A stretch of 61,110 nt of DNA, taken from NCBI GenBank assembly GCA_947625095.1, contig CANQMX010000012.1, forward strand, positions 1 to 61,110, in the 5' to 3' direction. The DNA comes from an uncultured Clostridia bacterium. Its GTDB lineage: Bacteria; Bacillota; Clostridia; Christensenellales; Borkfalkiaceae. Below are positions 24,975-44,336 of the stretch, one piece after another (the stretch's first letter is position 1; each line of letters begins with the position of its first letter). The notes below the pieces were generated by a model. The model had not been told where the DNA came from and ran no database searches. It worked only from the letters and a program-made list of their open reading frames with translations. Position numbers and translations under genes: made by a program.

Positions 24975-25003
24975 AAAAAATTCCCCCTCGGGGAGGGGGA
25001 ATT
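24975..25003 (-). terminator. Terminator of the protease-Opp operon
   Basis: AATTCCCCCTC (24979-24989) pairs with GAGGGGGAATT (24993-25003), and on the minus strand TTTTTT follows. It is the first strong terminator after the small gene at 25143. Confidence 0.75.
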
Positions 25004-25016
25004 GTGAGAATCTCGA

Positions 25017-25163
25017 TAAGAATGTCCGGCCGTGAAGTAAGAATATCCAGCAGTGAAGGCGGAAGGTTCAGCCGTGAAATCGGAATGTCAGGCCGCGAAG
25101 TAAGAATATCCAGCCGTGAAGTTGAAAGGTTCAGCAGTGTAGTCAGAATGTCCAGCCGTGAAG
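25017..25163. repeat. 7 x 21-bp tandem repeat overlapping a gene end
   Basis: Seven units of exactly 21 nt, consensus TAAGAATATCCAGCCGTGAAG with variation. The rightmost unit (25143-25163) encodes, on the minus strand, the last six codons LHGWTF and the stop of the 86-residue protein. The other six lie beyond the stop. Unit length is seven codons. Confidence 0.9.
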
Positions 25164-25403
25164 CCAGAGGTAGATGACGAGCACCGCGGCCGTGAAACCC
25201 AAGAGCACCATCAGGAACGCGGGCAGGTACGCAAGATACCCCGCGCGCACCAGCGCGCGCTTTTCCTTGCGCGTCGGCTTATCCTCTTCCTTCACCTTGC
25301 CCGCCGTGGGATTGTACCACGGCATCCCCTCGACGTTCATTTCGGCGATCGTTCTGCCGTCGTCATCGGGCGGGAGCGGCTTTTTCTTTTTTTTGCCCAA
25401 CAT
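25143..25403 (-). CDS. 86-residue membrane protein at the end of the Opp operon
   Basis: It starts MLGKKKKKPLPPDDDGRTI, has the segment AEMNVEGMPWYNP, a Lys/Glu-rich middle and one or two hydrophobic helices (about residues 58-83) up to the C-terminus LHGWTF. The basic N-terminus is likely cytoplasmic. ATG 25403 lies 2 nt after the oppF stop with AGGAG inside oppF, so it is co-translated. It may be a small accessory of the transporter; that is inference. Its 3' end forms the first unit of the 21-bp tandem repeat. Confidence 0.75.
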   Translation of the reverse strand: MLGKKKKKPLPPDDDGRTIAEMNVEGMPWYNPTAGKVKEEDKPTRKEKRALVRAGYLAYLPAFLMVLLGFTAAVLVIYLWLHGWTF

Positions 25404-25405
25404 TT

Positions 25406-26614
25406 TTACTCCTGCGGGTACAGGTGGCACGCGCAGAGATGGCCGTTCCCGTAGTCGATGAACTTGGGCGCGACCTCCTTGCAGATATCCATGCAGTGCG
25501 AGCACCGCGTGTGGAACTTGCAGCCCTTGGGCGGATTGGCGGGGCTGGGAATATCCCCCTCCAATATGATGCGGTTGACACGGTAGTGCGGGTCGGGCAC
25601 AGGCACTGCCGAGAGGAGCGCCAATGTGTACGGGTGCATCGGGCTGTTGAAGATGGCGTTCTTCGACCCCATCTCCACAAAGTTGCCGAGATACATCACC
25701 CCGACGCGATCCGAGATGTGCTTGACGACGGAGAGATCGTGCGAGATGAACATATAGGTGAGCTGCATATCGTCCTGCAACTCCTTGAGGAGGTTGACGA
25801 TCTGCGCCTGAATGGAGACATCGAGCGCCGAGACGGGTTCATCGCACACGACGAACTTGGGCTTTAACGCGAGGGCGCGCGCGATGCAGATGCGCTGGCG
25901 CTGGCCGCCCGAAAATTCGTGCGGGTAGCGGTCGAAATAGAAATCTTGCAGGCCGCACTTGCGCATGACCGAGATGATGTAGTCGCGATAGTCGCTCTTG
26001 GACACGATGCCGTGCACCTTGACCGCCTCGCCGATGATCTCGCCCACGGGAAGCCGCGGCGGGAGACTGCTGTATGGGTCTTGAAAGACGATCTGCATCT
26101 GCGGACGGATCTTGCGCAGCTCCGCCGCCTTCATCTTGGTGATATCCTTCCCGTCGAACACGACGCTCCCCGCCGTGATATCGAGAAGGCGCAGAATACT
26201 CCTGCCCATCGTGCTCTTGCCGCAGCCCGATTCGCCGACAACGCCCAGCGTTTCGCCTTGCGCGATATTGAAACTCACGCCGTCGACCGCCTTGACGTAC
26301 GTCTTGCGGTATTCCAATTTGTGCTTGGTCTTAAACGCCTCCTGCGGCGCTTCGCCTTCGCCCTCGGGCGCGGATTCTGCCGTTTCGGGCTGCGCTTCGG
26401 GCTGTGCCGCTTCCTCCCCTTCTCCCTCCGCTTGCTCTGCGGCGGGTTCGGCGGGCGCGACGGGCACTTTCTCCTTGACGAGCTTCCACTCCTTGCGGAT
26501 GAGGAAGTACTTTTTGAGATCGCGCACTTCGAGGAGGTTGCTGTTTTCCTGCTGCGCCTCTGCGGCTGCGGTTGCCTGCACCTCTGTTGCCGCGGTTTGC
26601 TGCTCGACGCTCAT
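25406..26614 (-). CDS. oppF: Oligopeptide ABC transporter ATP-binding protein OppF
   Basis: The 402-residue ATPase has Walker [11 protein letters not shown]-loop FQDPYSSLPPR, signature FSGGQRQRICIARAL and Walker B FVVCDEP, plus the OppF C-terminal region with a four-Cys cluster pattern around CKFHTRCSHCMDIC, as in dipeptide/oligopeptide ATPases. Two oddities: an Ala/Gln/Glu-rich N-terminal 25 residues, and an insert of about 60 acidic Ala/Glu/Pro residues between the first strand (LIRKEWK) and the Walker A region. ATG 26614 overlaps the oppD stop by 4 nt, with AAAGGAGG upstream. Confidence 0.93.
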   Translation of the reverse strand: MSVEQQTAATEVQATAAAEAQQENSNLLEVRDLKKYFLIRKEWKLVKEKVPVAPAEPAAEQAEGEGEEAAQPEAQPETAESAPEGEGEAPQEAFKTKHKLEYRKTYVKAVDGVSFNIAQGETLGVVGESGCGKSTMGRSILRLLDITAGSVVFDGKDITKMKAAELRKIRPQMQIVFQDPYSSLPPRLPVGEIIGEAVKVHGIVSKSDYRDYIISVMRKCGLQDFYFDRYPHEFSGGQRQRICIARALALKPKFVVCDEPVSALDVSIQAQIVNLLKELQDDMQLTYMFISHDLSVVKHISDRVGVMYLGNFVEMGSKNAIFNSPMHPYTLALLSAVPVPDPHYRVNRIILEGDIPSPANPPKGCKFHTRCSHCMDICKEVAPKFIDYGNGHLCACHLYPQE

Positions 26615-27996
26615 TGCTCTTCCTCCTTTCCGCCCGCATAGTAGCACGCCACGCTGTGCGTGGGAGTGACCTGCACGAGAGGCGGATATTCTCCCTCACA
26701 CTTTTTGCCGCAGCGTTCGCAGCGGTCTCTGAAATAGCAGTACTTGGGCATATCGATGGGATTGGGCACCTGCCCCTTGATACTGTAAAGCCAATCGCTA
26801 TCCTTGTTGAGCACGGGCTTGCTCTTTTGCAGACCCACCGTGTAGGGGTGCATGGGGGAATCGAAGATGTCCTCGACCGTGCCCTTTTCGATGACGCGAC
26901 CCGCATACATGACGACGACGTAGTCCGCCATGCCTGCAATGACCCCGAGATCGTGCGTGATGAGCATGATGCTGCCGTTGATCTTCTCCTTGATGCCCTT
27001 CAAGAGATCCAACACCTGCGCCTGAATGGTGACGTCGAGCGCCGTGGTTGGCTCATCCGCGATGATGAGTTTGGGGTTGCACGCGAGCGCCATTGCGATC
27101 ATGACGCGCTGGCGCATCCCGCCCGAGAGTTCGTGCGGGTAACTCTTATAGACATTGTCCGCCATGGCGATGCCGACCAAATTCAGCATCTCGATGGAGC
27201 GCGCCTTGGCGAGCGCCTTGTCCGCGCCCGGGGTGTGCAGGAGCACGACCTCGTCGAGCTGGTTGCCGATGGTGAACAGCGGGTTGAGGCTCGTCATCGG
27301 CTCCTGGAAGATCATGGAGATCTCCTTTCCGCGGATCTTGCGCATATCGTTCGTCGGCATCTTGGCGATGTCGTACGTCTTGTCCTCCATCTCGAAGGCG
27401 GGAAAGCCGTTGCCGTCCTTCGCCTGCACGGGCACCATGACGGGGTTGCCCGCCTTATCGAGCACGGGACGACCCTTTTTATCCAACTTGGGCGCGGTCT
27501 TGACGACCTTTTCGCCATCCTTTTCCTCGTACTCCCAAATGGGAATGGGCTTGCCGTCCTCGCCGCGCTTATAGTCCTGCGTCTGGAAGCGGATGGAACC
27601 GTTTACGATCTGCCCCTGCGGCGCTTGCACGAGTTGCATGACGGAGAGCGATGTGACCGACTTTCCGCAGCCCGATTCGCCGACGACGCCGACGACCGAG
27701 CTCTTGGGGATCTCAAAACTGACGCCGTCCACCGACTTGGAGACGCCCGCATCGGTGAAAAAGTAGGTGCAGAGGTTTTCGATCTCCAAGATGTTGCCGG
27801 GGTCTTTCATCTCCGTGAGATATTCCGCTTCGGAGACGTGGCGCGCCTTCTTCTTTTCGTATTCGCGCGTCGTCTTGGCGTTTTCGCGCGCGATCTTGCG
27901 GGCTTCCTTGCCCGAGATGTAGTGGGGATCATCCTTGTGCGTGGCGTGCCTGTACCATGCCTTGACGCGCCCGAGCAAATTCTTCTTTTCTGCCAT
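26611..27996 (-). CDS. oppD: Oligopeptide ABC transporter ATP-binding protein OppD
   Basis: The 461-residue ATPase carries [50 protein letters not shown] and the C-terminal CxxRC-type cluster ([14 protein letters not shown]). It is about 120 residues longer than usual: a basic N-terminal extension of some 60 residues (ending near [11 protein letters not shown]), and an insert of some 65 residues between Walker A and the Q-loop ([15 protein letters not shown]). Reading is uninterrupted, so these are real extensions, not a frameshift. Start 27996 is 3 nt after the oppC stop. Confidence 0.93.
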
Positions 27997-27999
27997 ACC

Positions 28000-29136
28000 T
28001 TACCTCTTCATCTTGGGATCGAGCGCATCCCGAAGTCCGTCGCCGATGAAGTTGAACGCGAGAACGGCGAGAATGATCATGATGCCGGCGGGAAGCCAAC
28101 ATTCGACATAGTAGTTGAGAATTGCCGTGTTGCCGACGGCAGACTGCACCATCTGCCCCCACGAAGCAGCCTCCGGAGGCACGCCGAGGCCGATGAAACT
28201 GAGCGTTGCCTCGTATAGAATGATGCTGCCGAGGCCGAGCGTCATGGACACGATGAGCTGCGGCATGACGTTGGGAATGAGGTGGCGGAAGATCTTGCGC
28301 GACGGGCTGAACCCGAGCGCCTCCGTGGCCACCATGTACTCCTGCTCGCGTAGGAATAGGATCTGCCCGCGCACGAGACGCGCGACGCCCGTCCAACTCA
28401 ATAGCGCGAGACACGCCATCATGATGTATATCCGCAAGTCCGCCGAGACTTCCGTACTTTCGAGGATCGCGCCTATGATGAGCAGGATGGGTAGCGACGG
28501 GATACAGTTCAGAATATCCACGATACGCATGATGACCATATCCACCCACTTGCCGAAATACCCCGCAAGACCGCCCAAGATGATGCCGATGATGGTATAG
28601 ATGAGAACGACGAGGAAACTCAAGAGAATGGAGAGCCGCCCGCCGTACATGAGGCGCACGAAGATATCGCGGCCGTTTTGATCCGTGCCCAAAACGTGCA
28701 GGCGCGCGGCCTTGTCGCTCGTCGCCTTGCTGTACGTGAAGGGCGCGGCGTTGGAGTTGATATCCGACATGATGAGGCTATCGGTGTACACCGTGTACTT
28801 GTTGCCCGCTTCATCCTCCGCTTCCATGATGCGGTAGGAATACCTTACTTCCGTGCCCGTTCTATCGACCTCTTCCTCCTGCCAGCCCACAAAGACAGGC
28901 CCGAGGAAGGAGAAGAGAAGCAAAAAGACAAACATGATGAGACCCGCAACGCACAGACGCGAGCGGAAAAACCGCTTCATGACGAGACGGAAGGGCGAGA
29001 TGATGCGCACACGGTCGGCGACGGATTCCACCGCCTCCGTTTGTTGCGCTTCGGGCTGCTGCGCCTCGGGCTGCTGCGCTTCGGGCGCGGAAACCGCTTG
29101 TTGCGCCTCGGTTGTGATCTTTTCTTCTTCTTGCAT
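28000..29136 (-). CDS. oppC: Oligopeptide ABC transporter permease OppC
   Basis: A 378-residue permease: the N-terminal cytoplasmic part has repeated PEAQQ units (residues about 18-35), then the first membrane helix (CVAGLIMFVFLLLFSFLGPV), an extracytoplasmic loop of about 100 residues, and five further helices. The coupling motif EALGFSPSRKIFRHLIPNV marks the contact with the ATPases. The start lies 14 nt after the oppB stop. Confidence 0.94.
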   Translation of the reverse strand: MQEEEKITTEAQQAVSAPEAQQPEAQQPEAQQTEAVESVADRVRIISPFRLVMKRFFRSRLCVAGLIMFVFLLLFSFLGPVFVGWQEEEVDRTGTEVRYSYRIMEAEDEAGNKYTVYTDSLIMSDINSNAAPFTYSKATSDKAARLHVLGTDQNGRDIFVRLMYGGRLSILLSFLVVLIYTIIGIILGGLAGYFGKWVDMVIMRIVDILNCIPSLPILLIIGAILESTEVSADLRIYIMMACLALLSWTGVARLVRGQILFLREQEYMVATEALGFSPSRKIFRHLIPNVMPQLIVSMTLGLGSIILYEATLSFIGLGVPPEAASWGQMVQSAVGNTAILNYYVECWLPAGIMIILAVLAFNFIGDGLRDALDPKMKR

Positions 29137-29150
29137 ATGTGCGGTCTCCT

Positions 29151-30137
29151 CTATTTGCTGATTTTGATGCGCGGGTCGACGACCATGTACATGATATCCG
29201 AAAGGAGCGTGCCGAGCACCGTCAGAATTGCGATGAACATATTATACCCCATGATGAAGGGGATATCGCCCTGTTTTAGGGCGTTGTACGCGATCTGACC
29301 GATGCCGGGGAGCGCAAAGACCTGCTCCAAGATCATCATGCCGCCGAAGAGGCTCGGGATGATGCCCGCGATCATCGTGACGAGGGGCACCATGGTGTTG
29401 CGGAACACGTGCTTGTAGATGACGGTGCGCTCGGAGAGGCCCTTGGCGCGCGCCGTGCGGATGTAATCCTGGTTGAGAACTTCCAAGGTGTTCGTACGCG
29501 TGTGGCGCATGAGGCCGCCCACCGAGATGATGGTGATGGCGATCATGGGGAGCACAATGTGCCAAAGTTCGTTGCCGAACTTCGCCGCGCCCGTGAGATA
29601 GGGGTCTACGATGCCCTGCGAGGGGAACCAGCCCAAATCGTAGGAGAACACTTTAATGAGCAGGATGGCGATGAAGAACGACGGGAAGGAGATACCGATC
29701 ATCGCAAAGACCGTGGTCGTATAGTCGATGGCGCCGTACTGCTTGGTCGCCGCCTTGATGCCGAGCGGGATGGCGATGACGAACTCCAAGACATACGCCG
29801 CAATGGCGATGCCGAAGGAGATCCACATATGCTCGGAGATGACGGTGGTGACGGGCTGGTTGTAGAGGAACGACGTGCCCAAATCGCCCGAGAGCGCCGC
29901 GATGAGCCACTTCCAATACCCGCGCAAAATGCCGACAAAGGAACTATCCTCCAAGCCGTAGAGCGTTTTGATGCGGTAGAGTTCCTCTTTGTTGATGGTG
30001 CCCTGCGTCATCTGCGAAAGAAATTTGTTCTCGACGTAGTCCATGGGGAGACACCGCACGAGGATGTACAGAATGATGGACACCGCGAACAAGATCAGAA
30101 TGGAATATAAAATTCTTTTGATGATGTATTTAACCAT
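29151..30137 (-). CDS. oppB: Oligopeptide ABC transporter permease OppB
   Basis: A 328-residue permease with six membrane helices. The N-terminus IIKRILYSILILFAVSIILYIL is typical, and the coupling motif is RAKGLSERTVIYKHVFRNT. It forms the channel with OppC. It follows oppA after a 69-nt gap containing a 9-bp hairpin. Confidence 0.95.
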   Translation of the reverse strand: MVKYIIKRILYSILILFAVSIILYILVRCLPMDYVENKFLSQMTQGTINKEELYRIKTLYGLEDSSFVGILRGYWKWLIAALSGDLGTSFLYNQPVTTVISEHMWISFGIAIAAYVLEFVIAIPLGIKAATKQYGAIDYTTTVFAMIGISFPSFFIAILLIKVFSYDLGWFPSQGIVDPYLTGAAKFGNELWHIVLPMIAITIISVGGLMRHTRTNTLEVLNQDYIRTARAKGLSERTVIYKHVFRNTMVPLVTMIAGIIPSLFGGMMILEQVFALPGIGQIAYNALKQGDIPFIMGYNMFIAILTVLGTLLSDIMYMVVDPRIKISK

Positions 30138-30156
30138 GTTCCCTCAAAACGGCCTG

Positions 30157-30185: not shown

Positions 30186-30206
30186 GCCGAAGTACTGTGA
30201 AATAAA

Positions 30207-32747
30207 TCAGGCGAAGTTGACTTCCCAAATGCGTGAGAGCGGGGACTGGAACGCCGTGGATTCGGCAAAGAGCGCGAGCGTCGCGTCGTCGAACAGTCCT
30301 CTCGGGTAGACGTAGAGCGCCTTTCTTTGATAGGTGGGAAGTTCAACGGCGAGTTCCATGACGAGGTCGAGCGCGCACTTCCCGCCGTCATCCGGCGTGC
30401 CCGAATACGCCTTGTAGCGCTCGGAGACGACGGTCGTCTGTCTGCCCTGTTCGATGCGAATTGCCAACTCTTCAAGGAGGTCTTTTTGCCTTCCCACTGT
30501 GCTGTTCGCATTGATATCGGCGTCCTCGATCCAAGGGAAGCCCCAAGCGAGGATACTCGTTGCCGACGAATCCTTGTGGTAGACCTGGTACATATCGGGG
30601 TCGGAGGAAGAACTCCACGCAGCCGCCCACACTTCGAGCCGTCCTGCGGCGAGTTTGGAGAGCGCGGTGGAATCGCGCGAGACCGTGACATCAAAGCCGA
30701 TATCGTTCAAAATTTCCGCCGCTCTGACCATGCAACTGTAGGCGGGGTGATCTTCGCTGTCGCCCGCGATGGTGAAGGTGAATTTCAGCCGTTCGTTGTT
30801 CTTTACAAGGAAGCCGTTGGAATCGGGCTGATACCCTGCTCTTAGCGCATATTCCTTGGATTTTTCACCTGTCGCATCGAAGGGGTAGTATGCCGTGGCG
30901 TCTTCAGGATAATATTTTTCGAGCACCGTGGACATAGGTCGATAGATGGCGGTAGCGAGGTTATCGCTGCCGTAGTAGTCGATGCAGAGTTTGGTATTCA
31001 TGGCGGACATAATTGCCTTGCGGATGTTGAGGTCCTGCACGTAACTTGCGTTGATGCCGATGTAGCCGTAGCCGAGATTCTCGGTGAGCGTGGAGGCGAG
31101 AATTTTTCTATCCTCTCCGGAGAGATTTTCGATCATCTCGTTGGTGGCGGAGGGAGAGGCAAAGTTGATATCGCCCGTCTTGACACTCTCGTAGAGAAGG
31201 GAGGTGTTGATGACCTTGTAGCAGAGTTTTTTGATCTTTGGCTCGCCGAGCATGAAGTTCTCATTGCTCTGCAAGTAGACGATGTTGTCGCTGAAAAATC
31301 TGCTCTTGCTGTTCTTCAACGCATTCAGATCGGTGGGCGGATTGCTATCCGCCGTGGAGGCGCGATAGGGACCTGCGCCGAGGGGCACCTGAATGACGCG
31401 GACGCTATCCATAAAGTCGCTGTCGCCGAATTCCACGCCGAAGTACTCCTTATCCTTTTCGAGGCTGAATTTGCTCGCCGTGGAGGAATAATAGTGCATG
31501 GGCGCGACCGTAAAGCCGAAGTTCTGGATGGCCTTGGGATCTTCGCCATTGATACGAATGTGGAGCACATCGCGCGCCTTGTCGAGGGGCCTGGAGCCGC
31601 TCGCCGTGGGAAGCGCGCTCAGGTTCTCCATGGTGATGCCCGAAATCGTGCGCACCTGCATATCGTCGCCGATGATCGTCTTGATCGCCTCGCCACGAAG
31701 ATACTGGTGGAAGGTGTTGGCCGTCGCATAGTACGTGATGACATTGTACAGGTTGGTTTTATAAGCCTTGGTGGCACTCTCTTTGCCGTCACGCAACATA
31801 TATCTGAACACGAAATCTGTGAGAGTAGCCTTGTCCTTTGCGGTATTTTTATCGTAACCGTAAGAGGGCGTGTACCACTTTGTGATCTCCCCCGTTTGCG
31901 GGTCTGTCTCTTTTTCCGTCTTCAGAGAGAGCAAACCGTAATTGTACATGAAGATCTGCCAATAATCCGTGATAATCTTTTTGCCGTCCTTATCGACATA
32001 CTTTTCGTAGTCCTCGAGGTTGGAGGACATGGCGGTGTTCCAGTCGGTATCGATCTCCTCCTTGAAGAGCTCTTCGACCTTCGCGATATCATCTATGGCG
32101 TGCTCTTTGGTTTCTAAATCGCTGTAGTTGCCCGTGTTGCCATCCATCGCCCAGTCTCTGAGAGCGCTGAGGCGAGTTGTAACCTCAAATTCAAGCGCAC
32201 CCTCAAAGCCCTCTTGGCCTGCCACGGTGGGCGACTGCGTTCTGTACGCCCGCAAGCCCTGAATATCCACGGAATACATGGTGGCAGAACCCGTGTAGGC
32301 GGGGTCGAGATACATATAGATATTGAAGAGGACATCCTGCTTTGTGAGCGGCGTGCCATCCGAGAATACGATATCGTCCTTGAGGGCGAAATAGTAATCG
32401 GTATAGTAGCCGCGATCAATGCCATCCACCTCGTCGCGGGTAGTTTTACTACCCGTCGTGACGAAGCTGTAATCGTAGGCGACGCAGGGTTCATCGACCC
32501 CTGCGACGATCTCCCCCTTGCTATCGGTGGAGAGCATCCCGATCATCGTCTGCCCGACGATATCGCCATCCGTGCCCGAGGTGTAGAAGAACGGGTTAAA
32601 AACGCCGTCCGGAAGGTCAGTACCCAAAATGAGCGCGTCCGCGCCGCTTCCGCCACCGCAGGCAGCGAGGCAGCCGCACGCAAGCCCCACCGCCATGGTG
32701 AGACCCATTGCCGTTGCAATGATACGCAATACCTTTTTCTTTTTCAT
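30207..32747 (-). CDS. oppA: Oligopeptide-binding lipoprotein OppA-like
   Basis: An 846-residue substrate-binding lipoprotein (lipobox LAAC, Cys30), family SBP_bac_5. That family is normally 500-600 residues, so this one is enlarged, with extra sequence around residues 200-330 (EELFKEEIDTDWNT to DKATLTDFVFRYML). The family pattern DDIVFSDGTPLTKQDVLFN is near residue 130. It delivers peptides to OppBC at the outer face of the membrane. It follows the lipoprotein at 32798 after 50 nt. Confidence 0.9.
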   Translation of the reverse strand: MKKKKVLRIIATAMGLTMAVGLACGCLAACGGGSGADALILGTDLPDGVFNPFFYTSGTDGDIVGQTMIGMLSTDSKGEIVAGVDEPCVAYDYSFVTTGSKTTRDEVDGIDRGYYTDYYFALKDDIVFSDGTPLTKQDVLFNIYMYLDPAYTGSATMYSVDIQGLRAYRTQSPTVAGQEGFEGALEFEVTTRLSALRDWAMDGNTGNYSDLETKEHAIDDIAKVEELFKEEIDTDWNTAMSSNLEDYEKYVDKDGKKIITDYWQIFMYNYGLLSLKTEKETDPQTGEITKWYTPSYGYDKNTAKDKATLTDFVFRYMLRDGKESATKAYKTNLYNVITYYATANTFHQYLRGEAIKTIIGDDMQVRTISGITMENLSALPTASGSRPLDKARDVLHIRINGEDPKAIQNFGFTVAPMHYYSSTASKFSLEKDKEYFGVEFGDSDFMDSVRVIQVPLGAGPYRASTADSNPPTDLNALKNSKSRFFSDNIVYLQSNENFMLGEPKIKKLCYKVINTSLLYESVKTGDINFASPSATNEMIENLSGEDRKILASTLTENLGYGYIGINASYVQDLNIRKAIMSAMNTKLCIDYYGSDNLATAIYRPMSTVLEKYYPEDATAYYPFDATGEKSKEYALRAGYQPDSNGFLVKNNERLKFTFTIAGDSEDHPAYSCMVRAAEILNDIGFDVTVSRDSTALSKLAAGRLEVWAAAWSSSSDPDMYQVYHKDSSATSILAWGFPWIEDADINANSTVGRQKDLLEELAIRIEQGRQTTVVSERYKAYSGTPDDGGKCALDLVMELAVELPTYQRKALYVYPRGLFDDATLALFAESTAFQSPLSRIWEVNFA

Positions 32748-34034: not shown

Positions 34035-37000
34035 TCATGCGGTCACGGTTTGAGTTTGAAGATGCGCGTCGCCGTCGGGCGTTTTGCCGAGTTTCGACCA
34101 GTTGGCATCCGCTTGGAACGCGGCGATGACGGTTTCCGTCGCCACGATTTTGACCGTATATCCCTCGGAAGCATGATAGAAGATATTTCTTTCGCTCGAA
34201 TCGAGCGCCATTTCTACAAGTTTCGACGCGTAGAGCGTGACGGTTTTGAGGGAAGTGCACTCGCTGAACGTGAGTTCGCCGAATTTTGCGAGTTGGCTCG
34301 CGTGCTGTGCCGTGCCGAAGTCGATGGTTTCGAGCGCCGTGCAGCCGCTGAATGCGCCATCGCCCACCTCCGTGACGGAAGCGGGAACGGCGAGAGTGCG
34401 AACCCCCGTATGGGCGAACGCCTCCGCGCCGATCTTGGTGAGCGCGCTCGTGCCCTCTGCCGCGCCGACGAACGTGATAGAGAAGCGGGCGTTTGGCTCG
34501 TTTGCGGTAGAGCCATTGTACTGCATCCCCACCCCTTCAAATGCCTCGATGCCGATCTCCTGCACACTTGCGGGGATGACGATCTCCCGATTGATATTGG
34601 AGGTGTAGGAGACGGTTTCGCCCGAACCCGACGTTGAGGAGGCAGCATAGGCGCAGAACGTCTGCGCGGGGATCTTTGTGACGCCGTTCGCGATCGTGAT
34701 CTGCTCCAACGACGTGATCATTGCAAACGCGCCCACGCCGAGCTGCGTGTTAGCGGAAAGTTCGACCTCTTCGAGTTCGGTCTGACGAAACGCATAGTCG
34801 CCGATGCTTGTGGCGTGCGAGAGGTCTATCTCCTCGATGGCGGTGCTGAAATAACTGTACGCGCCGAATGAGGTGATGGTGTTGCCCTCGGGGAAGTTCA
34901 CCTTGGAAAGCCCCGTAAACAGCGCAAACGCACCGTCGGGAATGGCGGAATACTGCCTGTTGACGGTCACTTCGTTGAGCGTGGCGGGAACGCCGCCCAT
35001 GTTGGCGATAGCGGCATTTTTGAAGGTCGTCCCGTCGTCGAGTTCGTCGTCTTCGTAAGAAATCCGCGTCCCGAAGATATACGCCATATAGGTGTTGTTC
35101 GTGGCGCTGCCGCCGATGAAGGGCACTTCGAGGCTGCGGAGCGCAAAACTGTTGCTGAACGCGCCCGCCGCAATGCTTGTGACGGTATCGGGAACGGCGA
35201 CCTTCTCCACCGCGCTATCGGTGAACGCGCCCGCCGCGATGCTTGTGACGCCGCTCTTGAAATTGACTGCCGTCTTGGCGGAGGGAACGGCAAGAAGGGT
35301 TGTGCCGGCCGCATTGTACAGGCATCCGTCGTAGACCGAATACTCCGCCGAAGTCGTGCCCTCCGCCATCTTATACTCCTCGAATTGAGGGCAGCCCGTG
35401 AAGGCGTACTCCCCGATGGAGGTGAGCTGCGGCGAGACCGTGAACGATTTAAGCGCGGTGTACGCAAAGGCGTACTCCCCGATGGAGGTGACAGAATTGA
35501 GACCCGAGACCTCCTCCAGCCCCACCGCACCGCAGAATGCCGAATTTCCCACTGCGGTAGACGTGCCGCCCACAAAGGTGACGGAACGCAGCGTTGCGGG
35601 AATATACGCGCTGCGGCGCGTGCGCGATTCGCGCGCGGTCGCACCGAAGTAGTACGCGAGATAGTCGTTTGCGCCGTTGAGCGCGGGAACGGTGAGCGTT
35701 TCCAATGCGCTCATGCCCCCGAGCGCGCCACATTCGAGGCGGACAGACGCGCCGACGGTGACAGTTTTGAGCGCCGTGTTGCCTTCAAACGCGCCTGCCT
35801 TGACGGTGGTGACGTTTGCGGGCAGACTGTACTGCGCCTCCTCTTCACCGCCGCCGATGTGGTATACGAGTTCGTTGTTGTTGTGGTAAAGGTCTCTGCC
35901 GCTCACTTTGTAAGTTCCGTTCCCCGACGTTTCAACCGAAGAGAGCGCGGAGCAGCCCGAAAATATATTCGTGCCGAACGAAGTGAGGTTGCCGCGGAAG
36001 GTGACCTTTTCGAGCGAGGAGCAGCCGTCAAAGAGGCCGTTGTTCACCTGCGTGACGCCTGCGGGAAGGGTCATCTCCTTGATGAGGGTGCAGTCGCCGA
36101 ACGCCTGCGCGCCCACCGACGTTGCACGATCGGAGAGCGTGATGGCGGAGAGTTTCTTGCAGCCGAGGAAGAGTCCTTCGGGAATGGATGTGACGTTTGA
36201 GATATCGCCGTACGAGGTGAGGCGGCTGCAATCAAAGAAGGCATATTTGCCGAGCGAAGAAGTCACCCGAGTGAGATTGACGGAGACGAGATAGCGGCAG
36301 CGATAGAATGCCTGCTCGCCCACCGAAACGATGGTTTGCGGCAGGGAGACCTGCGTGATATCGTCATTATCGCGGAATGCCGCCTCGCCGATAGAGAGGA
36401 CGGATTGTGCATTGTAGCGGTTGGGCACAATGACGGTGGAACTTGTCCCCGTATAACCCGTAACGGTGTTCCCCGAAATTGTAAGCCCCTTGGTGTAGAA
36501 ACTCGTGTAGAGATTCAGATTGGTCGTCGCGTTTTGGCCAAACGCATAGGCGGTGGTGAGCGTGGAATTCGTATACCAGTGCCCCGCATATTCGAGGTCG
36601 CCCGTTGCGGGGAAGAGGTCGGGATCTGAGATCGCCGTGCCCTTTTTCACCGGGATGCGCGTGAGCGGCTCATCGTTGCCGTAATAGGTGATGTAGGCGT
36701 AGTTGGAGTCGTCATCCCAGCGCGCGTACAGGGTGATGTTTCCTTCGGGGTACACGGTGAAGGAGAAATACTCATTATCGTTGCAGGCGGCGGAAGTGTA
36801 CCAGCCGCCGAAGGCGTAGCCCTCCTTTGTGGGAGACGCGGGCATGGTGAGCCTGCTTCCCACCGCGCCCACCGAGGACTGTACGGCAGAGCCGCCCATA
36901 CTATCGTACACGATGCGGGAGCTGCGCTGCGACGCCCAGCCCGCGTACACCGTGATGTTGTTCGCCGGCATCCTCTGCGAAAAATCGAAGTTCTGCGTGC

Positions 37001-37223
37001 ACGACGCATCCGAATACCAACCCGTGAAGGTGAAGAGCGCCTTTGTGGGATCGGCGGGGCGCGCGATCTCCTCGCCCTGTTTCAATTCATAGGGAGCGAT
37101 CTGCGTGCCGCCGTATGTTTCAAACGTGACGGTGTATTTTTCGCCACCGCCGCCGCACGCCGCAAGCGCGCCGACGAAGAGAGAACAGAGCAGGATCAGA
37201 AGAAAGGTCTTTAACTTTTTCAT
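34035..37223 (-). CDS. Surface lipoprotein with InlB repeats and BspA-type leucine-rich repeats
   Basis: A 1062-residue lipoprotein (lipobox LAAC, Cys23). Residues about 30-240 contain three InlB B-type repeats (FTFTGWYSDASC, YAFGGWYTSAAC). From about 270 to 1030 come some thirty LRR_5/BspA units of the form SIGEYAFAYTALKSFTVSPQ. BspA-type LRRs mediate protein binding in gut and oral bacteria. The start is 3 nt after the protease stop, so the two are co-translated. The same LRR type occurs in the protease itself, suggesting that the two surface proteins bind the same targets or each other. Confidence 0.88.
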   Translation of the reverse strand: MKKLKTFLLILLCSLFVGALAACGGGGEKYTVTFETYGGTQIAPYELKQGEEIARPADPTKALFTFTGWYSDASCTQNFDFSQRMPANNITVYAGWASQRSSRIVYDSMGGSAVQSSVGAVGSRLTMPASPTKEGYAFGGWYTSAACNDNEYFSFTVYPEGNITLYARWDDDSNYAYITYYGNDEPLTRIPVKKGTAISDPDLFPATGDLEYAGHWYTNSTLTTAYAFGQNATTNLNLYTSFYTKGLTISGNTVTGYTGTSSTVIVPNRYNAQSVLSIGEAAFRDNDDITQVSLPQTIVSVGEQAFYRCRYLVSVNLTRVTSSLGKYAFFDCSRLTSYGDISNVTSIPEGLFLGCKKLSAITLSDRATSVGAQAFGDCTLIKEMTLPAGVTQVNNGLFDGCSSLEKVTFRGNLTSFGTNIFSGCSALSSVETSGNGTYKVSGRDLYHNNNELVYHIGGGEEEAQYSLPANVTTVKAGAFEGNTALKTVTVGASVRLECGALGGMSALETLTVPALNGANDYLAYYFGATARESRTRRSAYIPATLRSVTFVGGTSTAVGNSAFCGAVGLEEVSGLNSVTSIGEYAFAYTALKSFTVSPQLTSIGEYAFTGCPQFEEYKMAEGTTSAEYSVYDGCLYNAAGTTLLAVPSAKTAVNFKSGVTSIAAGAFTDSAVEKVAVPDTVTSIAAGAFSNSFALRSLEVPFIGGSATNNTYMAYIFGTRISYEDDELDDGTTFKNAAIANMGGVPATLNEVTVNRQYSAIPDGAFALFTGLSKVNFPEGNTITSFGAYSYFSTAIEEIDLSHATSIGDYAFRQTELEEVELSANTQLGVGAFAMITSLEQITIANGVTKIPAQTFCAYAASSTSGSGETVSYTSNINREIVIPASVQEIGIEAFEGVGMQYNGSTANEPNARFSITFVGAAEGTSALTKIGAEAFAHTGVRTLAVPASVTEVGDGAFSGCTALETIDFGTAQHASQLAKFGELTFSECTSLKTVTLYASKLVEMALDSSERNIFYHASEGYTVKIVATETVIAAFQADANWSKLGKTPDGDAHLQTQTVTA

Positions 37224-37226
37224 GGC

Positions 37227-40200
37227 TTATTTCTCCCTCCTTCCCGTATGGGTGCGGCAGATGAGGAAGGCTGCACCGCAAGCCGCGACGATCGCCGCAA
37301 AGACGGCGAACCAAACCGCGCCGTTTTCGCCGGTGCTCGCCGCCTCGGCCGTCTCCGCCAAAGGCTCTGTCTGCGTTTCCACATAGGAAACGCCGCTTGC
37401 CGCCTGCAATTTTGCGTAGGCCGCTTTGACCTCTTGGAAGCCCTGCTGCGTGGAATCGAGGAGGTTGTAGATACGGCGGAGAAGATTGATCTCCGCGGTG
37501 CGCTCGTCGCCCGAGAGTTCGGAGAGCGCGTTGACGCGGTCGATGAAGTCGAGCGCGCTCGCGTTGAGGGCGTTCGTTTTCGTCTTTTTGATCTTCCCGT
37601 TCGCGTTGGTCGTCTGGTCGTAGACACCACCGAGGTACTCCTTCCAGATATAGCCGTCGTAGCCCGTGGCGTTCATTGGAACGATCCATTCCAGCGTGAG
37701 CGTACTACCCAACTCCTTCGGGAGGTTGTTATAGGTATTGATGAGGTCATCGCCCTGCATCGTGCCGACGCTCTCCAACGTGGGTGCGGCGACGGCGCCG
37801 ATTTCGACCGTAGCCAACTTGCTTGCGCGGTAGAACGCGCCCACCCCGATGGACTTCATGTGCGCGGGCAGGGTGATTTTTGTGAGGACATCGTTTTCAT
37901 AGAAGGCGTACGCGCCCACCTTGACCGTCCTCTCCTTGACGGTATACGCGGTGACATCTTTCTTGCCGAGAGGATAGGCGACGAGGGTGTAGAGGTCGCC
38001 GCCGTTCTTTTGGTAGAGCACGCCGTTTTCGGTGAGGAAGCGGCTGTTGTTTGCGCCGACGTCAATAGAACCCAAAGCGGTTGCGCCCGCAAACGCCTGC
38101 TGTTCCACGGAGCGAAGGTTGGGCAAGGTAAGCGCGGTGACGCCCGAACCGCTGAACGCGTTTGCGCCGATGGATCTGGCGGCGGGAAGCGCGATCGTGG
38201 TGAGGGCGCGCGTGCCGCGGAAGGCGTTCGCGCCGATATTCTCCGCCGCCTTGACGTTGATCGTTCCAATATTCTCCGCCGCCTTGACGTTGATCGTTCC
38301 AAGCGCTGTGCATCCGTCGAATGCGCTGACGCCGATCGTGGTTGCCGCATTGAGCGTTACATTCGTAAGCGATGTGCAGCGCGCAAAGGCGAGGTCGCCG
38401 ACCTCAGTTGCGGAACTCGTCACGTTGGAAACCGGCGTATTGTAGAATGCGCGCGTGCCGATGCGCTTGGCTTTGATCGCACTCACAGTCCCGAGGCGTG
38501 TGCCCTCGAACGCGCTGTCCCCGATTTCCTCGATATTATTGAAATTAAATGTAGCGAAGAGCGTCCCCTCGAAGGCGTGCGCGCCAATGGTGCGAACGCT
38601 TGCGGGAAGGCTGATGTTTAAGATTTGCGTCCCGCCGAAGCAGTAATCGGGGATAGTATCGATCTGCGCCTGTAACGTCACTGTCGCAAGTGAGGTCGCG
38701 CGGCAGAACGCGCTGTCGCCGAGTTCTTTGATGTTCGCGGGGATCGTCACCGAGCCGAGCGCGGGGCACTCCGCAAACATTTCGGTTGAAAGTTTTTCGA
38801 GCGTATTCCCGAGCGTCACGCTTGTGAGCGACGTGCAGTGGAAGAACACGCCATCGTCGACTTCCTTCAACGAAGTGGCGTTCGTGAAGTTCACTGTGGT
38901 CAAATCGCTCTCCGCAAAGGCATATTCGCCGATATGGGTGACTTTTGCGGGAACATTGAGCGTTCCGTTTAAGCCTGTGCAACCGGCAAAGGCATAGTCG
39001 CCGATGTAGGTGACATTTGTGGGAACGGCGGCGATGGCGTCGTTCGCCGCAAAGGCATAGTCGCCGATATAGGTGATATTGCCCGTCCCCTTAAGCGTCG
39101 CCGTGCACTGCTGGAAGGCGCGCGCCTCGATGCGTTCGACATTTTTGAGGTCGATCGTATTGATCGAAGAGACATTCGTAAAGGCATTCGCCCCGATGAT
39201 GCGCACGCTTTCGGGCACGGTGAATGTAGTCGCCGTCCTTGCGAAGGGATAGGCGATAAGGCGATACATCGTCTTATCGTACAGTACGCCGTCCTGCGTG
39301 GCGGCGAGGTACTTGTTGCCATCCTCCACCACGAACTTGTTGAGGCGGCTTAGCCCGCCGAATGCGCGGATATCCGGCTCGATGATGCAGGCATCCTTAT
39401 CCACGGTGATGGTGGTAAGGTTACTGCACCCGTACAACGCCTGCTGCCCCAACTTGGTCAGCCCCGCGGGGAAGGTGAACGATGTGAGCGAGGTATTGTA
39501 GGAGAATGCCATCGCCCCGATCTCATACACCGAACCGAGGAAGTTGACGTGCGTAAGCGACGTGCAGCGGTAGAACGCCTGCACATCGATGAGCTCCACA
39601 TCGCCCGCAAAGGTGACGTCGGTGAGCGCGGTGCAGTTCTGGAAGGTCAACGGCCCGATGTGGTTGCCGTAGCACACGACGCTCTTCAAACTCGTGCACC
39701 CGTAGAACGCGCCGAACTCGGTAACGGTATTAGCGGGAATGACGAGCTCGGTGAGCGCGGTGCAGCGGTAGAACGCCTGCTCGCCGATGACGCCCACCTT
39801 GCTCAGATCCACCGTCTTGAGCGCGGTGCAGTTGACGAATGCCATTGCGCTGATGTACGTCGTCCTGCTCAAATCGATGGTTTCAAGCGAGGTATCGTAC
39901 ACAAAGGCATACGCGCCGATGGTCTGCAAGTGCTCCGTGTTGATCTTTTTCAGTTTGGGGTTCCATGCGACCCCGAAGGTCTGGATCTGCGTGCAACTTT
40001 CGGGGAGTTCGATCTCTTCGAGGTTGTCGCACCCGTAGATGCCTGCGCGCATGATGTACTGCACGCCCTCGGGAATGATGATCTTTTTGATATAGGGGTT
40101 CTGGAAGAACGCCAAGGGATAGATATAGGAGATGCCGAGATCTTCAGGGATCTTCACAATGCCGTTTTCATCCCCTCTACCCGTGTAGGAGCGCAGATAT

Positions 40201-43200
40201 ACGCTATCCACATAGTACTCTTCCTTCACGCGCACCGAGCAACTCGCGTTGATATACGTTCCCGCGATGCGCACGCCGATGGTCGCCGAGCCCGACTTCA
40301 TCCCCTTGACGGTGCACTTTAACTTGTTGGCGGGGTCGGGCGTCGCCGTGACGTTGGTGCTCGAACTCGTCCACTGTATCTCGAGATCGTCTATGGGATA
40401 ATCCGAAGGTTTGATGGTGGCGGTGATGGTCATCTCCTCGCCGCGCTCGATGCTGAGCGAATAGTTGGAAAGTTCCACTTCGCGCACCGAAGGCGTCGTG
40501 GGCGTGCCCTCCACGCGCACCTTAAATTTAAGCATATTGCCGCCATCCGCAGGCGTCACGGAAATTTCCGCTTCACCCGCCTGCTTGCCGACGACAAGGC
40601 CGCTATCCGCTTCCACCGTGGCGATGTTGGGCGCGTTGCTCGTCCAGACGAGTTTCTTCGTCCAATAGCCCTCAAACTCGCTTTCGCCGACCTTGGAGAA
40701 GATGCGAACATAGTCCTCCAAATCGACGTCGCCGTTGGGGCGAATGGTGTACTGCTCGCGCGCATTCCTCGTCTTTTCAAGCCGCACTTCGTCGCACTCT
40801 TTGAGTTTGACAAAGAATTCGTCCCCGTTCTTTGCATAGTCCATGAACTGAACGTAAAGTTGATAGTTGTTCTTTACGATGAGGTCCCAATAGGAGGTCA
40901 CATCGAGCGAAACGCGCGTCGTGCCGTTGAATTCGCCGTTGTAGATGGGAACTACGCTATCCGTAATGGCGGTAAGCCCCGTCGGCTCGCCGTTTTCATC
41001 TATGCTTTCATATGTGTACACGAGGTAGCCCTGCAAGTAGTGGTTGTCATGCACGTTGAACTCCACCGTCTTGCGGTGGTTCGCATCGCGCACATATACC
41101 TCGTATTCGCCCTCTTCGTTGGTGAGGAGCACCGGCTTTTCGTCATCGATGTAGAAATCGAAGGAGAACGTATTTCTGTTCCCGCGCGTATACTCCGTCT
41201 CTCCTTCGCCCTTCCAATCGAGGTAGCACGTCATGCTGAACGTATACTTGCCGTTGTTGGCGAGGTCGTAGTTGCGCACATCGAAGTTGACATAGATGTA
41301 GCCGCCCATCTGCTCGCCGCCGCTCGAATGTGATTTGCGCGCGTTGTAATCGACGCCCGACCAGATGAGTTCACCCGTGACGGAATCGCGGATCTCCATT
41401 TCCACCCGCTTCGCGCCGCGCAGAAGCCCCGCGGCGACGGAATAGAGAAGATAGTTGCCCTCGGAATTGTGCGTGAGCGAAGCATACTGCTCGCGCGTGA
41501 CGGGCGTTTCATACCCCTGCGCGATGTTGTAGCCGTACGCGCCGAGACCCCACGAACCGATCTCGGGATTGCCGTAGTCGTCCGTCATGTTGAAGCCCGC
41601 CATGGGGAGGGTGCCGTAGACGTCGGCGACAAGTTTATCCTCTTCCAGAACGGAGGAATCCACCGCCGATTCGCCCACTTCGTAGGCGGTGACGTCGAGC
41701 ATGGGCGCATCCTCCCAATTGCCGTAGAAGGCGAGGAAGGGAAGATTGAGGTTGATCTTATCGGGATTGTACGACTGCAATTCGACGTAACCTTCCACAT
41801 ACATCCCGTTGACAAAGTTTTTGGTGAGGTATGCCTTGTCCTCCGCGGAAAGTTTTACGGTGACGACGAGCTTCGCCGTGGTGTAACCTTCGATGGAGAG
41901 CGTCGCGTTGTTGCCGATCTCCGCCTTGCCGCCCGTCACTTCCGCAACGGAATAGGTGGCGGTGGGAGAGAGCATATACGCCTTTTCGGCGACCGTCTTG
42001 CCGTCCGAGGACATACTCTCCGTCATGACGATGGGATTGATCTTGTAACTGAGCGACTCGGCGGACATATTGGTGATATTGAATTTAAGTTCGTACACGC
42101 CTGCGCGCGCGGGATCGTCTTTGAGCGAGAGTTTGGGCTTGTTCGAACCATCCACCGAGAGGTACGCCTTGGTGTGCACCGAGCGGTAGATATCGCCGAT
42201 GCCTGCGCCCTGCTTGCGCGGGGAATAGGGGTTGCCCTCCTCGTTGCGCGCGATGGTCGCCGTGCTCATCATGAGGCCGTAGGAGAGGTCGCGCACTTCC
42301 GTCGTAGAAGTCATACCCTCCAACGTCTTTACATATTCGCGCACCAATACGAGCGCGCCCGCGATGTTGGGGCACGCCATCGAAGTGCCGCTTATGGTAT
42401 CGTATTCGTTTCCGCCGGGGAAGGACGATGTGATGTCGCCGCCGTGTCCCGTGATATCGGGGCAGAGTTCGAGGTCGGGCAGCGGCCCCCACGAGGAGAA
42501 GTCGGACATGAACGGGCCGGCGAGATAGTTCTTATCTATCCGTATCGTACCCGTCGTCTTTTCCTCGAAGTATTTGCCGAAGTCCATGGAGACGAGGCAG
42601 CTCGGAATGACGTTTTGCGTACCGATGGACATATTGAGCATACCCGAGAGGTGGTTATAGATGATGACGCCGACGGCGCCCTTGGATTTTGCGATTTTGA
42701 CCTTGTCCTCAAACGAGTTGTTGCCGCGCTTGACGACTGCGATCTTTCCGTTGACGTCGATGTTCGTATAGTTGGCCTCGAACCCGACGCCGGGGATGAC
42801 GACGTATTGGAATTCGCCGCTCTCGGAATTGCCGAGCAGTTCCTCCACAAATTTGTTTGGCTCTGTCTTGCCCGTCGTGCGCGATTCGCTGAAATAGACC
42901 TCTTTTTCGCCGTTGACGTACATATAGGGCGTCTTGACACCGCTTATGGAGGCGACGGCAAAGGATGCCGTGTACGTTGCGGGCGAACCTACTGTGCCCG
43001 CATCGGGGTTGGAGGCGAGGTTGGTGTTGCCGTTCGCGCCGCCGTAGGAGGAGGAAAATTCGTTGCCCGCCGCAACGACAAGGCTGATGCCCGATTGTTC
43101 GATGAGGTCGTACGTCTCGTTTACGTTCTCCTCATCCTCCTCGCGGGAGAAACCGCAGGAAGCGCCGAGGGACATATTGATGGCGTCCACGCCGAGCACC

Positions 43201-44189
43201 GCCGCATCGTTGAGCGCGGCGAGGATGCCCTCCGTGGAACTCGTGCCCGAATCCTTGAACACCTTAAAGGTGGCGATCTGCGCGCGCGGCGCAACGCCCC
43301 GTATTCTCCACGATTCGCCCGCGATGATGCCCGCAACGTGCGTGCCGTGCGCCTCGGCGGGGTAGACGTTGGTATCCACATCGGCATAGTCGAACGCATA
43401 GGGAAGTTTAGAGGTGATATACAGGTCGTCCTCGTCGATCTCTTCGTCGTCCTCCCCCATCCACATCGCCGCTGTGAGGGCGGGAACTGCCCTTGCCACG
43501 TCGTCCTTTGTGATGGCCATCGTATCGGGATCGAGATCCATACGGAACACTTCGTGTGTATAGTCCGTGCCCGTATCAAGCACGGCGACCACCGTGCCCG
43601 TGCCGTCGAATTCCACATTGGTGGAGTTGAAGATACCCGTATCCTGCACGTTCACGTCGTTTTCGACGATCTCCTGCGGGGCTTCGTACTCGTTGGAGAG
43701 GATGACTTTGGAGACAAGCGCGCTATTTTCGATCTTTGCGAGGTTGCCGTAGCGCACCCGCGCGGAGAAGCCGTTGAACACCGTCGTGTAGCGGTAGCCC
43801 ACATCGATGAGGTAGCCCGCGAGCGAAGAGACTGCGCGGGAGATCTCCTCATTGCGCTCGGCGAGCAGTTTTTCCCCGTCGAACGCCTGCAAAAGTTCCG
43901 TGGCGGTGACGCCGCGCTCGTTCGCCGTTTCGAGGAGAGGCTCGCCTTGAAGCCCGACAAGAACGGTGACGATATCCTGCGCGTCCGGCTCGCCGACAAG
44001 AGAAATCGACTCCGAGCGCCTCTCTTCCTTTTCTCCGCTGTCAACGATCTCCGCGGCGGACGCCGAAGCGGTGGGGGCGGAGGCTTCCGTACCCGCAGCG
44101 CCGCGCGCGCCCAGCGCCTCCAAAGCGATAAACGCCCCGAATATCGCGGCGAAGCACAATACCAGAACGCTCTTTAACGATTTCATCAT
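37227..44189 (-). CDS. Giant membrane-anchored S8 subtilase with Ig-like and leucine-rich repeats
   Basis: A 2320-residue surface protease. Signal peptide (residues 1-30), propeptide-like segment, then a subtilisin domain with Asp205 (VVAVLDTGTDYTHE), His281 (HGTHVAGIIAG), Asn376 (AAGNE) and Ser603 (GTSMACPN). A PA domain (KVKIAKSKGAVGVIIYNHLSG) is inserted before Ser603, as in lactocepin and C5a peptidase. Fn3-like parts follow, two Big_2-like domains (about 1150-1310), some 35 BspA-type LRRs (about 1330-2160), and a C-terminal membrane helix (about 2290-2313) with basic tail; no LPXTG. All catalytic residues are present. It heads the operon that continues into the Opp importer. Confidence 0.92.
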   Translation of the reverse strand: MMKSLKSVLVLCFAAIFGAFIALEALGARGAAGTEASAPTASASAAEIVDSGEKEERRSESISLVGEPDAQDIVTVLVGLQGEPLLETANERGVTATELLQAFDGEKLLAERNEEISRAVSSLAGYLIDVGYRYTTVFNGFSARVRYGNLAKIENSALVSKVILSNEYEAPQEIVENDVNVQDTGIFNSTNVEFDGTGTVVAVLDTGTDYTHEVFRMDLDPDTMAITKDDVARAVPALTAAMWMGEDDEEIDEDDLYITSKLPYAFDYADVDTNVYPAEAHGTHVAGIIAGESWRIRGVAPRAQIATFKVFKDSGTSSTEGILAALNDAAVLGVDAINMSLGASCGFSREEDEENVNETYDLIEQSGISLVVAAGNEFSSSYGGANGNTNLASNPDAGTVGSPATYTASFAVASISGVKTPYMYVNGEKEVYFSESRTTGKTEPNKFVEELLGNSESGEFQYVVIPGVGFEANYTNIDVNGKIAVVKRGNNSFEDKVKIAKSKGAVGVIIYNHLSGMLNMSIGTQNVIPSCLVSMDFGKYFEEKTTGTIRIDKNYLAGPFMSDFSSWGPLPDLELCPDITGHGGDITSSFPGGNEYDTISGTSMACPNIAGALVLVREYVKTLEGMTSTTEVRDLSYGLMMSTATIARNEEGNPYSPRKQGAGIGDIYRSVHTKAYLSVDGSNKPKLSLKDDPARAGVYELKFNITNMSAESLSYKINPIVMTESMSSDGKTVAEKAYMLSPTATYSVAEVTGGKAEIGNNATLSIEGYTTAKLVVTVKLSAEDKAYLTKNFVNGMYVEGYVELQSYNPDKINLNLPFLAFYGNWEDAPMLDVTAYEVGESAVDSSVLEEDKLVADVYGTLPMAGFNMTDDYGNPEIGSWGLGAYGYNIAQGYETPVTREQYASLTHNSEGNYLLYSVAAGLLRGAKRVEMEIRDSVTGELIWSGVDYNARKSHSSGGEQMGGYIYVNFDVRNYDLANNGKYTFSMTCYLDWKGEGETEYTRGNRNTFSFDFYIDDEKPVLLTNEEGEYEVYVRDANHRKTVEFNVHDNHYLQGYLVYTYESIDENGEPTGLTAITDSVVPIYNGEFNGTTRVSLDVTSYWDLIVKNNYQLYVQFMDYAKNGDEFFVKLKECDEVRLEKTRNAREQYTIRPNGDVDLEDYVRIFSKVGESEFEGYWTKKLVWTSNAPNIATVEADSGLVVGKQAGEAEISVTPADGGNMLKFKVRVEGTPTTPSVREVELSNYSLSIERGEEMTITATIKPSDYPIDDLEIQWTSSSTNVTATPDPANKLKCTVKGMKSGSATIGVRIAGTYINASCSVRVKEEYYVDSVYLRSYTGRGDENGIVKIPEDLGISYIYPLAFFQNPYIKKIIIPEGVQYIMRAGIYGCDNLEEIELPESCTQIQTFGVAWNPKLKKINTEHLQTIGAYAFVYDTSLETIDLSRTTYISAMAFVNCTALKTVDLSKVGVIGEQAFYRCTALTELVIPANTVTEFGAFYGCTSLKSVVCYGNHIGPLTFQNCTALTDVTFAGDVELIDVQAFYRCTSLTHVNFLGSVYEIGAMAFSYNTSLTSFTFPAGLTKLGQQALYGCSNLTTITVDKDACIIEPDIRAFGGLSRLNKFVVEDGNKYLAATQDGVLYDKTMYRLIAYPFARTATTFTVPESVRIIGANAFTNVSSINTIDLKNVERIEARAFQQCTATLKGTGNITYIGDYAFAANDAIAAVPTNVTYIGDYAFAGCTGLNGTLNVPAKVTHIGEYAFAESDLTTVNFTNATSLKEVDDGVFFHCTSLTSVTLGNTLEKLSTEMFAECPALGSVTIPANIKELGDSAFCRATSLATVTLQAQIDTIPDYCFGGTQILNISLPASVRTIGAHAFEGTLFATFNFNNIEEIGDSAFEGTRLGTVSAIKAKRIGTRAFYNTPVSNVTSSATEVGDLAFARCTSLTNVTLNAATTIGVSAFDGCTALGTINVKAAENIGTINVKAAENIGANAFRGTRALTTIALPAARSIGANAFSGSGVTALTLPNLRSVEQQAFAGATALGSIDVGANNSRFLTENGVLYQKNGGDLYTLVAYPLGKKDVTAYTVKERTVKVGAYAFYENDVLTKITLPAHMKSIGVGAFYRASKLATVEIGAVAAPTLESVGTMQGDDLINTYNNLPKELGSTLTLEWIVPMNATGYDGYIWKEYLGGVYDQTTNANGKIKKTKTNALNASALDFIDRVNALSELSGDERTAEINLLRRIYNLLDSTQQGFQEVKAAYAKLQAASGVSYVETQTEPLAETAEAASTGENGAVWFAVFAAIVAACGAAFLICRTHTGRREK
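38236..38301. repeat. Exact 33-bp tandem duplication inside the protease LRR region
   Basis: 38236-38268 and 38269-38301 are identical and produce the doubled peptide GTINVKAAENIG. It is in frame, adding 11 residues, and is evidently recent because no silent change separates the two copies. Confidence 0.9.
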
Positions 44190-44306
44190 AATCGATTTTC
44201 TCCTTGGATCAATCCTTATCCTGTTCGGATGGCAGGCGCACCCTGCGCCCGCTCACTTTTCGTTTTTTTGCCTTTTTCGCCTTCGGCGCAAAAAGATACA
44301 TTTTGT

Positions 44307-44336
44307 ATTTTAGCATAATCGCAAGCGATTCGTCAA
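44307..44336 (-). promoter_or_regulatory. Promoter of the protease-Opp operon with an operator-like palindrome
   Basis: TTGACG (44331-44336), 18 nt, TAAAAT (44307-44312) with TG one nt upstream (extended -10). The spacer contains AATCGC-AA-GCGATT (44317-44330), a perfect inverted repeat. TTTGACGAA overlapping the -35 matches the Spo0A box TGNCGAA on the minus strand. The mRNA leader is about 110 nt and has GC-rich hairpins at about 44230-44290, then AAGGAG before the ATG. Confidence 0.6.

Follow-up and report, generated by a model that had tools for sequence, protein, structure and literature searches.

A conserved locus of uncultured Clostridia that links a giant lactocepin-like subtilase to an Opp-type importer and probably serves protein utilisation

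In lactococci, the use of casein requires opp and pep genes together with the cell-envelope protease PrtP (PMC6098607), which is covalently attached to the wall (PMC7783315); opp is often carried on lac/opp plasmids (PMC6458302), and a strain with opp may lack prtP/prtM, which are often plasmid-borne (PMC6098607). Here, we describe a gene cluster from a 61,110-nt stretch of DNA of an uncultured Clostridia bacterium (the window; contig C12, CANQMX010000012.1, of a 1.78-Mb genome with an estimated completeness of 94.8%), which resembles the lactococcal PrtP/lactocepin and Opp pair in containing an S8 cell-envelope protease plus OppABCDF. Unlike the lactococcal pair, the protease and the importer lie in one cluster, LPxTG is absent, no sortase was found, leucine-rich repeats (LRRs) are present, and two extra conserved, poorly described partner proteins are encoded, namely an InlB-type lipoprotein and a small membrane protein. 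The protease and the region following it also align over about 600–700 residues with the LPXTG-anchored serine peptidases SGO_0316/SGO_0317 and with C5a peptidase/SpyCEP, though the C-terminus here consists of LRRs and a hydrophobic segment with no sorting signal. A further parallel is offered by the polysaccharide utilisation loci (PULs) of Bacteroidetes, which combine surface binding, surface cleavage and co-encoded import; the logic of binding, cleavage and import at the surface is shared, whereas the present cluster would handle protein rather than glycan and carries an ABC importer rather than a TonB-dependent SusCD. No description of the gene cluster was found among the matches listed from the open-licence PMC literature, and the available portions of PMC6458302, PMC6098607, PMC2605481, PMC3772855, PMC8027456 and PMC11536998 do not describe it. 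The cluster is a real conserved locus that probably works like PrtP-Opp; its protease is anchored differently, the InlB-type lipoprotein is constant and the small protein nearly so.

An earlier note on this DNA, made from its letters alone, had claimed nine same-strand genes with intergenic gaps of −4 to 69 nt, and all nine open reading frames (ORFs) were recovered in their places on the minus strand, running from 44189 to 25143 in the following order:

37227..44189, minus strand: giant subtilase, 2320 aa, with a signal peptide and an S8 domain (196–663) carrying a PA insert
34035..37223, minus strand: LRR lipoprotein, 1062 aa, with two Flg_new/InlB-type repeat stretches and LRR_5 domains; an optional partner
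32798..34006, minus strand: InlB-type lipoprotein, 402 aa; the constant partner 5′ of oppA
30207..32747, minus strand: OppA, an 846-aa lipoprotein, family 5 binding protein (Pfam)
29151..30137, minus strand: OppB permease (Pfam BPD_transp_1)
28000..29136, minus strand: OppC permease (Pfam BPD_transp_1)
26611..27996, minus strand: OppD ATPase, N-terminally extended, with an insert following the Walker A region
25406..26614, minus strand: OppF ATPase, with its ATG at 26614
25143..25403, minus strand: small membrane protein, 86 aa

The gaps in the 5′ part are 3 nt (protease–LRR lipoprotein), 28 nt (LRR–InlB-type lipoprotein) and 50 nt (InlB-type lipoprotein–OppA), and those in the opp part are 69 nt (OppA–B), 14 nt (B–C), 3 nt (C–D), −4 nt (D–F) and 2 nt (F–small protein), with the last two assuming ATG starts at 26614 and 25403 in place of the mechanical ORF starts at 26647 and 25505, respectively.

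Conservation was assessed in 151 genomes of the window's own group, which we take to be Borkfalkiaceae (Christensenellales), with PF00082 matches in 86 and matches to the window OppA in 87. Giant S8 copies were defined as frames of ≥1300 aa, which left 83 copies in 77 genomes once 26 of the 109 S8 matches (<1300 aa) were dropped. A total of 63 of these copies (62 of the 77 genomes) lie ≤25 kb from OppA, with the actual distances all within ~10.4 kb; all 63 are on the strand of OppA, 54 being upstream and nine downstream of it. The linkage is far above chance: it was observed in 62 of the 77 genomes, whereas genes placed at random in a 1.7-Mb genome would be expected to fall within 15 kb of each other on the same strand in only 0.7. 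Both genes occur in 77 genomes (in one of which, G146, the OppA match is only fragmentary), OppA alone in seven, S8 alone in none and neither in 67, with three of the 87 OppA-positive genomes dropped from this count for weaker matches (G056, G101 and G134). For the stretches examined around opp, the counts of genes present are lower bounds, since longest-first ORF calling there missed genes lying under longer antisense ORFs (e.g., in L078, L081, L090 and L093). Very long frames antisense to the protease gene were seen at 41469–44177 on the plus strand of the window (902 aa) and at L090:11712-19901 (2730 aa), so that gene calling by longest ORF is misled there; the 2730-aa frame has no Pfam match.

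The linkage extends beyond the family. At the order level, where frames of about ≥2000 aa were taken outside the family, 26 of the 34 long S8 copies entered lie ≤25 kb from OppA on the same strand, in five further families, and the remaining eight have no OppA nearby among the 53 of the listed OppA matches that were entered (these omit that of G374, which is on another contig). A profile scan of GTDB representatives gave at least 587 confirmed OppA relatives, the best 80 of which (the named loci) include Candidatus Gallimonas, Candidatus Scatosoma and many uncultured Clostridia as well as records labelled Anaeroplasma bactoclasticum, Acholeplasmatales and Bacilli; the closest record among these 80, L134 from an uncultured Clostridia bacterium, has an OppA 80% identical to that of the window. 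Record L162, a MAG labelled Anaeroplasma bactoclasticum, encodes the protease, the InlB-type lipoprotein, OppABCDF and the small protein. An S8 protease lies in a flank of up to 10 kb in 60 of the 80 named loci (45 upstream and 15 downstream), with median gaps from mechanical starts of −1 nt (S8–LRR lipoprotein), 15 nt (S8–InlB-type lipoprotein) and 27 nt (InlB-type lipoprotein–OppA). At least eight contigs, as judged by their length, are common to the family and named sets, and the two are thus not independent. The earlier note had named a lack of conserved linkage in related genomes as a refutation of its proposal; the linkage proved conserved in both sets. The full nine-gene order holds in a subset of the loci, the window included, and elsewhere the protease is downstream of opp or apart from it.

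A tree of 110 OppA proteins was built with FastTree, a fast method that is less careful than others, and the protease position was mapped on it as undirected changes, with 31 rows set by hand and 10 without a state because the contig ended nearby (an alignment of OppA covered 40 of 42 relatives plus the window). The protease was upstream in 64 rows, downstream in 23, absent in 13 and unknown in 10, requiring at least nine changes. The downstream position was observed in at least three separate OppA clades, namely L153, L081/L164/L168, and a large clade with L080, L173 and L210; in such cases the median gap between the small protein gene and the S8 gene is 16 nt in the family (n = 6) and 15 nt in the named loci (n = 13). 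Adjacency retained despite relocation is the strongest sign of functional coupling in these data.

The window protease matches S8 (PF00082, 140 bits), PA (54 bits), Big_2 and LRR_5 in Pfam, and has an S8 triad with a PA-domain insert as in lactocepin. That the catalytic Asp/His/Ser are intact, as had been claimed earlier, was borne out: Asp205, His281, Ser603 and the oxyanion Asn376 are identical in all 47 aligned giant proteases, the window included. Ten LRR_5 stretches were found in the window protease, and such stretches also occur in three giant proteases scanned from other clades. The fn3_5 score of the window protease (25.8 bits) is below the cut-off of 27.6, with above-cut-off matches in the proteases of L074 and L097 and none listed for L162. 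By sequence, the closest solved structures are C5a peptidase, chemokine protease C and cell envelope proteinases; the SGO_0316 family (NF040553) does not take in the protease, which scores 222.8 against a cut-off of 1400. The C-terminus in the window is a hydrophobic segment with a short basic tail, and a terminal hydrophobic segment is present in 45 of the 47 giant proteases. This end prompted sortase anchoring as a candidate, which found no support, given the lack of LPxTG in the last 130 residues of all 47 proteases and of any sortase (PF04203) match in the 94.8%-complete genome. Taken with the hydrophobic segment, these absences indicate a protease that appears lactocepin-like in its catalytic part and anchored differently.

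Of the surface partners, it is the InlB-type lipoprotein that is constant, adjoining OppA on the 5′ side in 76 of the 80 named loci, the other four starting at a contig end. It has a TTG start codon after AGGAGG and consists of a beta-grasp part with the InlB B-repeat-like fold followed by a C-terminal beta-rich part, and it falls just under the curated cut-offs of PF09479 (Flg_new; 25.9 against 27 bits) and TIGR02543 (19.9 against 20.95), though a precomputed PF09479 annotation exists for the same protein; its alignment covered 38 of 42 relatives plus the window. The LRR lipoprotein (LRR_5 and Flg_new in Pfam) is optional. The claim of LRRs on both protease and lipoprotein stands, Pfam LRR_5 being found in both, but the LRR lipoprotein is not the constant partner, as it lies immediately upstream of the InlB-type lipoprotein in just 31 of the 80 named loci. 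LRR proteins of about 960–1655 aa occupy the usual upstream protease place beside the Opp module in L174, L178 and L212. The small protein has a single hydrophobic segment, at its C-terminus, as well as a DDGRTIAEM motif, and matched no Pfam or NCBIfam family; its relatives (~70–100 aa, one helix, a DDG[RH]T-type motif) form the near-constant last gene of the Opp module.

The importer genes carry the Pfam domains of a family 5 importer (SBP_bac_5 once, BPD_transp_1 twice, and ABC_tran with oligo_HPY twice), and OppD and OppF have kept their ABC motifs intact. Both ATPases are enlarged by extensions and inserts within or next to the nucleotide-binding domain, and complete OppD/F-like ORFs in the named loci range from 242 to 665 aa (mechanical starts). 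OppA contains a large, mainly helical extra region at about residues 170–370. In a Foldseek search with the OppA model, AppA with a nonapeptide was the first match and lactococcal OppA also ranked high, a result consistent with an importer that would carry oligopeptides.

Two putative signals on the minus strand frame the cluster:

44307..44336, minus strand: promoter-like site TTGACG-18-TAAAAT with a TG extension, matching the consensus at 10/12 positions
24979..25003, minus strand: intrinsic terminator-like hairpin of 11 pairs with a T tail

The single promoter and strong terminator claimed earlier fared unevenly: the promoter site is the only minus-strand match of ≥10/12 in the window and the hairpin has the longest stem among the minus-strand terminator matches, yet both scans of the window are at chance overall (12 promoter matches against 9.5 expected, and 19 terminator matches against 22.4). 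Two of four relatives compared also have TTGAC and TG-N-TAAAAT ahead of the protease, with the site kept in G099 and present in G111 in an altered version (TTGACA...TGATAAAAT), while no comparable site was seen in G051 or G108; the promoter site gains some weight from this recurrence. The short gaps and the one partly conserved promoter would fit an operon with a single transcript. A CodY-box-like palindrome with three mismatches at 44361–44375, just upstream of the promoter, is a lead; eight such matches were obtained in the window against 1.3 expected, an excess that AT-rich intergenic sequence can produce. The single Rfam match in the window at the gathering threshold is a tRNA. The divergent spoIIE gene upstream and the convergent germination genes downstream bound the cluster on both sides.

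The cluster resembles a dedicated protein-eating kit because the protease–importer partnership recurs in many related bacteria. The locus is probably a protein-utilisation set, in which a membrane-anchored lactocepin-like protease would feed a co-expressed oligopeptide importer with the help of surface adaptors. The C-terminal helix would keep the giant subtilase in the membrane, where the enzyme would bind and cleave extracellular protein, putatively of host or dietary origin as the earlier note proposed. The LRR and InlB-type lipoproteins are putative adaptors that would retain the substrate or give order to the complex; the enlarged OppA would capture the oligopeptides set free, and OppBCDF would import them for amino-acid nutrition, with the small membrane protein as a possible accessory to the permease or the protease.

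Several observations weigh against protein utilisation by such a set. The nickel-binding NikA/NikZ also score high among the structure matches of OppA, so that the fold leaves the ligand unsettled. The genome also encodes a second OppA paralogue (G000:C1:90366-92798, L133), 62% identical to that of the window. No second Opp cluster was seen around it: the labels within 20 kb include neither the Opp-type permeases and ATPases nor such a protease, and among four adjoining ORFs compared with Pfam, three are without a match and one is a carbohydrate phosphorylase. Between S8 and the InlB-type lipoprotein, more than 60 nt intervene in 9 of 23 named loci and in 6 of 23 loci of the family, which makes a second promoter possible before the lipoprotein gene. 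S8 and Opp stand at separate loci in some genomes: many of the 20 unlinked giant S8 copies are on other, often short, contigs, in G088 the protease and OppA share one contig at a distance of 233 kb, and no protease was found in the stretches around opp in G049, G095 and G147. Among the 20 named loci lacking S8, eight have ≥7 kb of sequence upstream of OppA and are thus probably without the protease there, the stretches of the others ending sooner. IlvC shows no association with the module (35 of 84 carriers against 31 of 67 other genomes), TrpA, which is present in just six of the 151 genomes and absent from 145, carriers or not, does not discriminate, and the genome of the window itself has both IlvC and HisB.

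In one genus, histidine biosynthesis genes precede the module of InlB-type lipoprotein and Opp on the same strand, and no protease is close by (L118:10635-19745 from G095, L114, L117, L122 and L131). The three ORFs scanned upstream of the module in L118 are all histidine synthesis genes by Pfam, IGPD matches were found a few kb upstream of the module on the same strand in G002, G049, G088 and G147, and an LRR protein gene with a further ORF can stand between the histidine gene(s) and the module (G088, L117). Given these modules and the eight named loci without a protease, the word "self-contained" in the earlier note was too strong. HisB is present in 28 of the 84 module carriers against 51 of the 67 other genomes and is also rarer in carriers within genera (Mantel-Haenszel p 0.006, with four of the 151 genomes left out for want of a genus code), an association that is partly genus structure. 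This pattern, from one of three families tried (IlvC, HisB and TrpA), lends weak support to a feeding role. Also on the side of feeding, the genome of the window has one S8 match, and neither a PTR2 transporter nor TrpA was found in it. Amino-acid auxotrophy as direct proof was rejected given the null result for IlvC, the genus structure behind HisB and the near-absence of TrpA everywhere.

A bolder form of the protein-utilisation reading, which we hold only tentatively and consider rather doubtful, is that the protease, InlB-type lipoprotein, enlarged OppA and small protein make up one membrane machine for "selfish" feeding, a Gram-positive-type protein counterpart of the PUL. Among the rivals, the one that survives best, though unlikely, is a host-modulating surface protease that, like C5a peptidase and SpyCEP, acts on particular host proteins by trimming them, with the co-location of Opp reflecting shared regulation or peptide sensing. 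Quite improbable is a peptide-signal system in which the protease matures or degrades signals that Opp imports for quorum sensing; the module does sit between germination genes and spoIIE, and Opp transporters import signals in some Firmicutes, but no regulator or pheromone-like product is encoded among the nine genes, the relatives' stretches, many of which end near the cluster, showed neither the SpoIIE nor the germination neighbours, and an LRR protease of 2300–2700 aa is oversized for signal trimming. Least probable of all are independent neighbours that have stayed side by side through common descent and are not functionally coupled. The chance-level signal scans and the genomes with protease and opp apart speak for them; the side switching with adjacency and strand retained, the short gaps, the near-complete co-occurrence and the linkage seen in several families as well as in Bacilli-labelled records speak against them.

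The loci with which gut bacteria use sugars have been charted well, those for the use of proteins much less so. The signature of a giant LRR subtilase, an InlB-type lipoprotein, OppA–F and a small membrane protein would mark protein-feeding bacteria from sequence, and it opens the way to a clear test for physical coupling between cleavage and uptake. If the four proteins do form one membrane machine, protein would be held and cut and its peptides handed directly to the permease without release, a way of feeding that would be shared by numerous uncultured members of the Clostridia and Bacilli, many of which come from animal guts.

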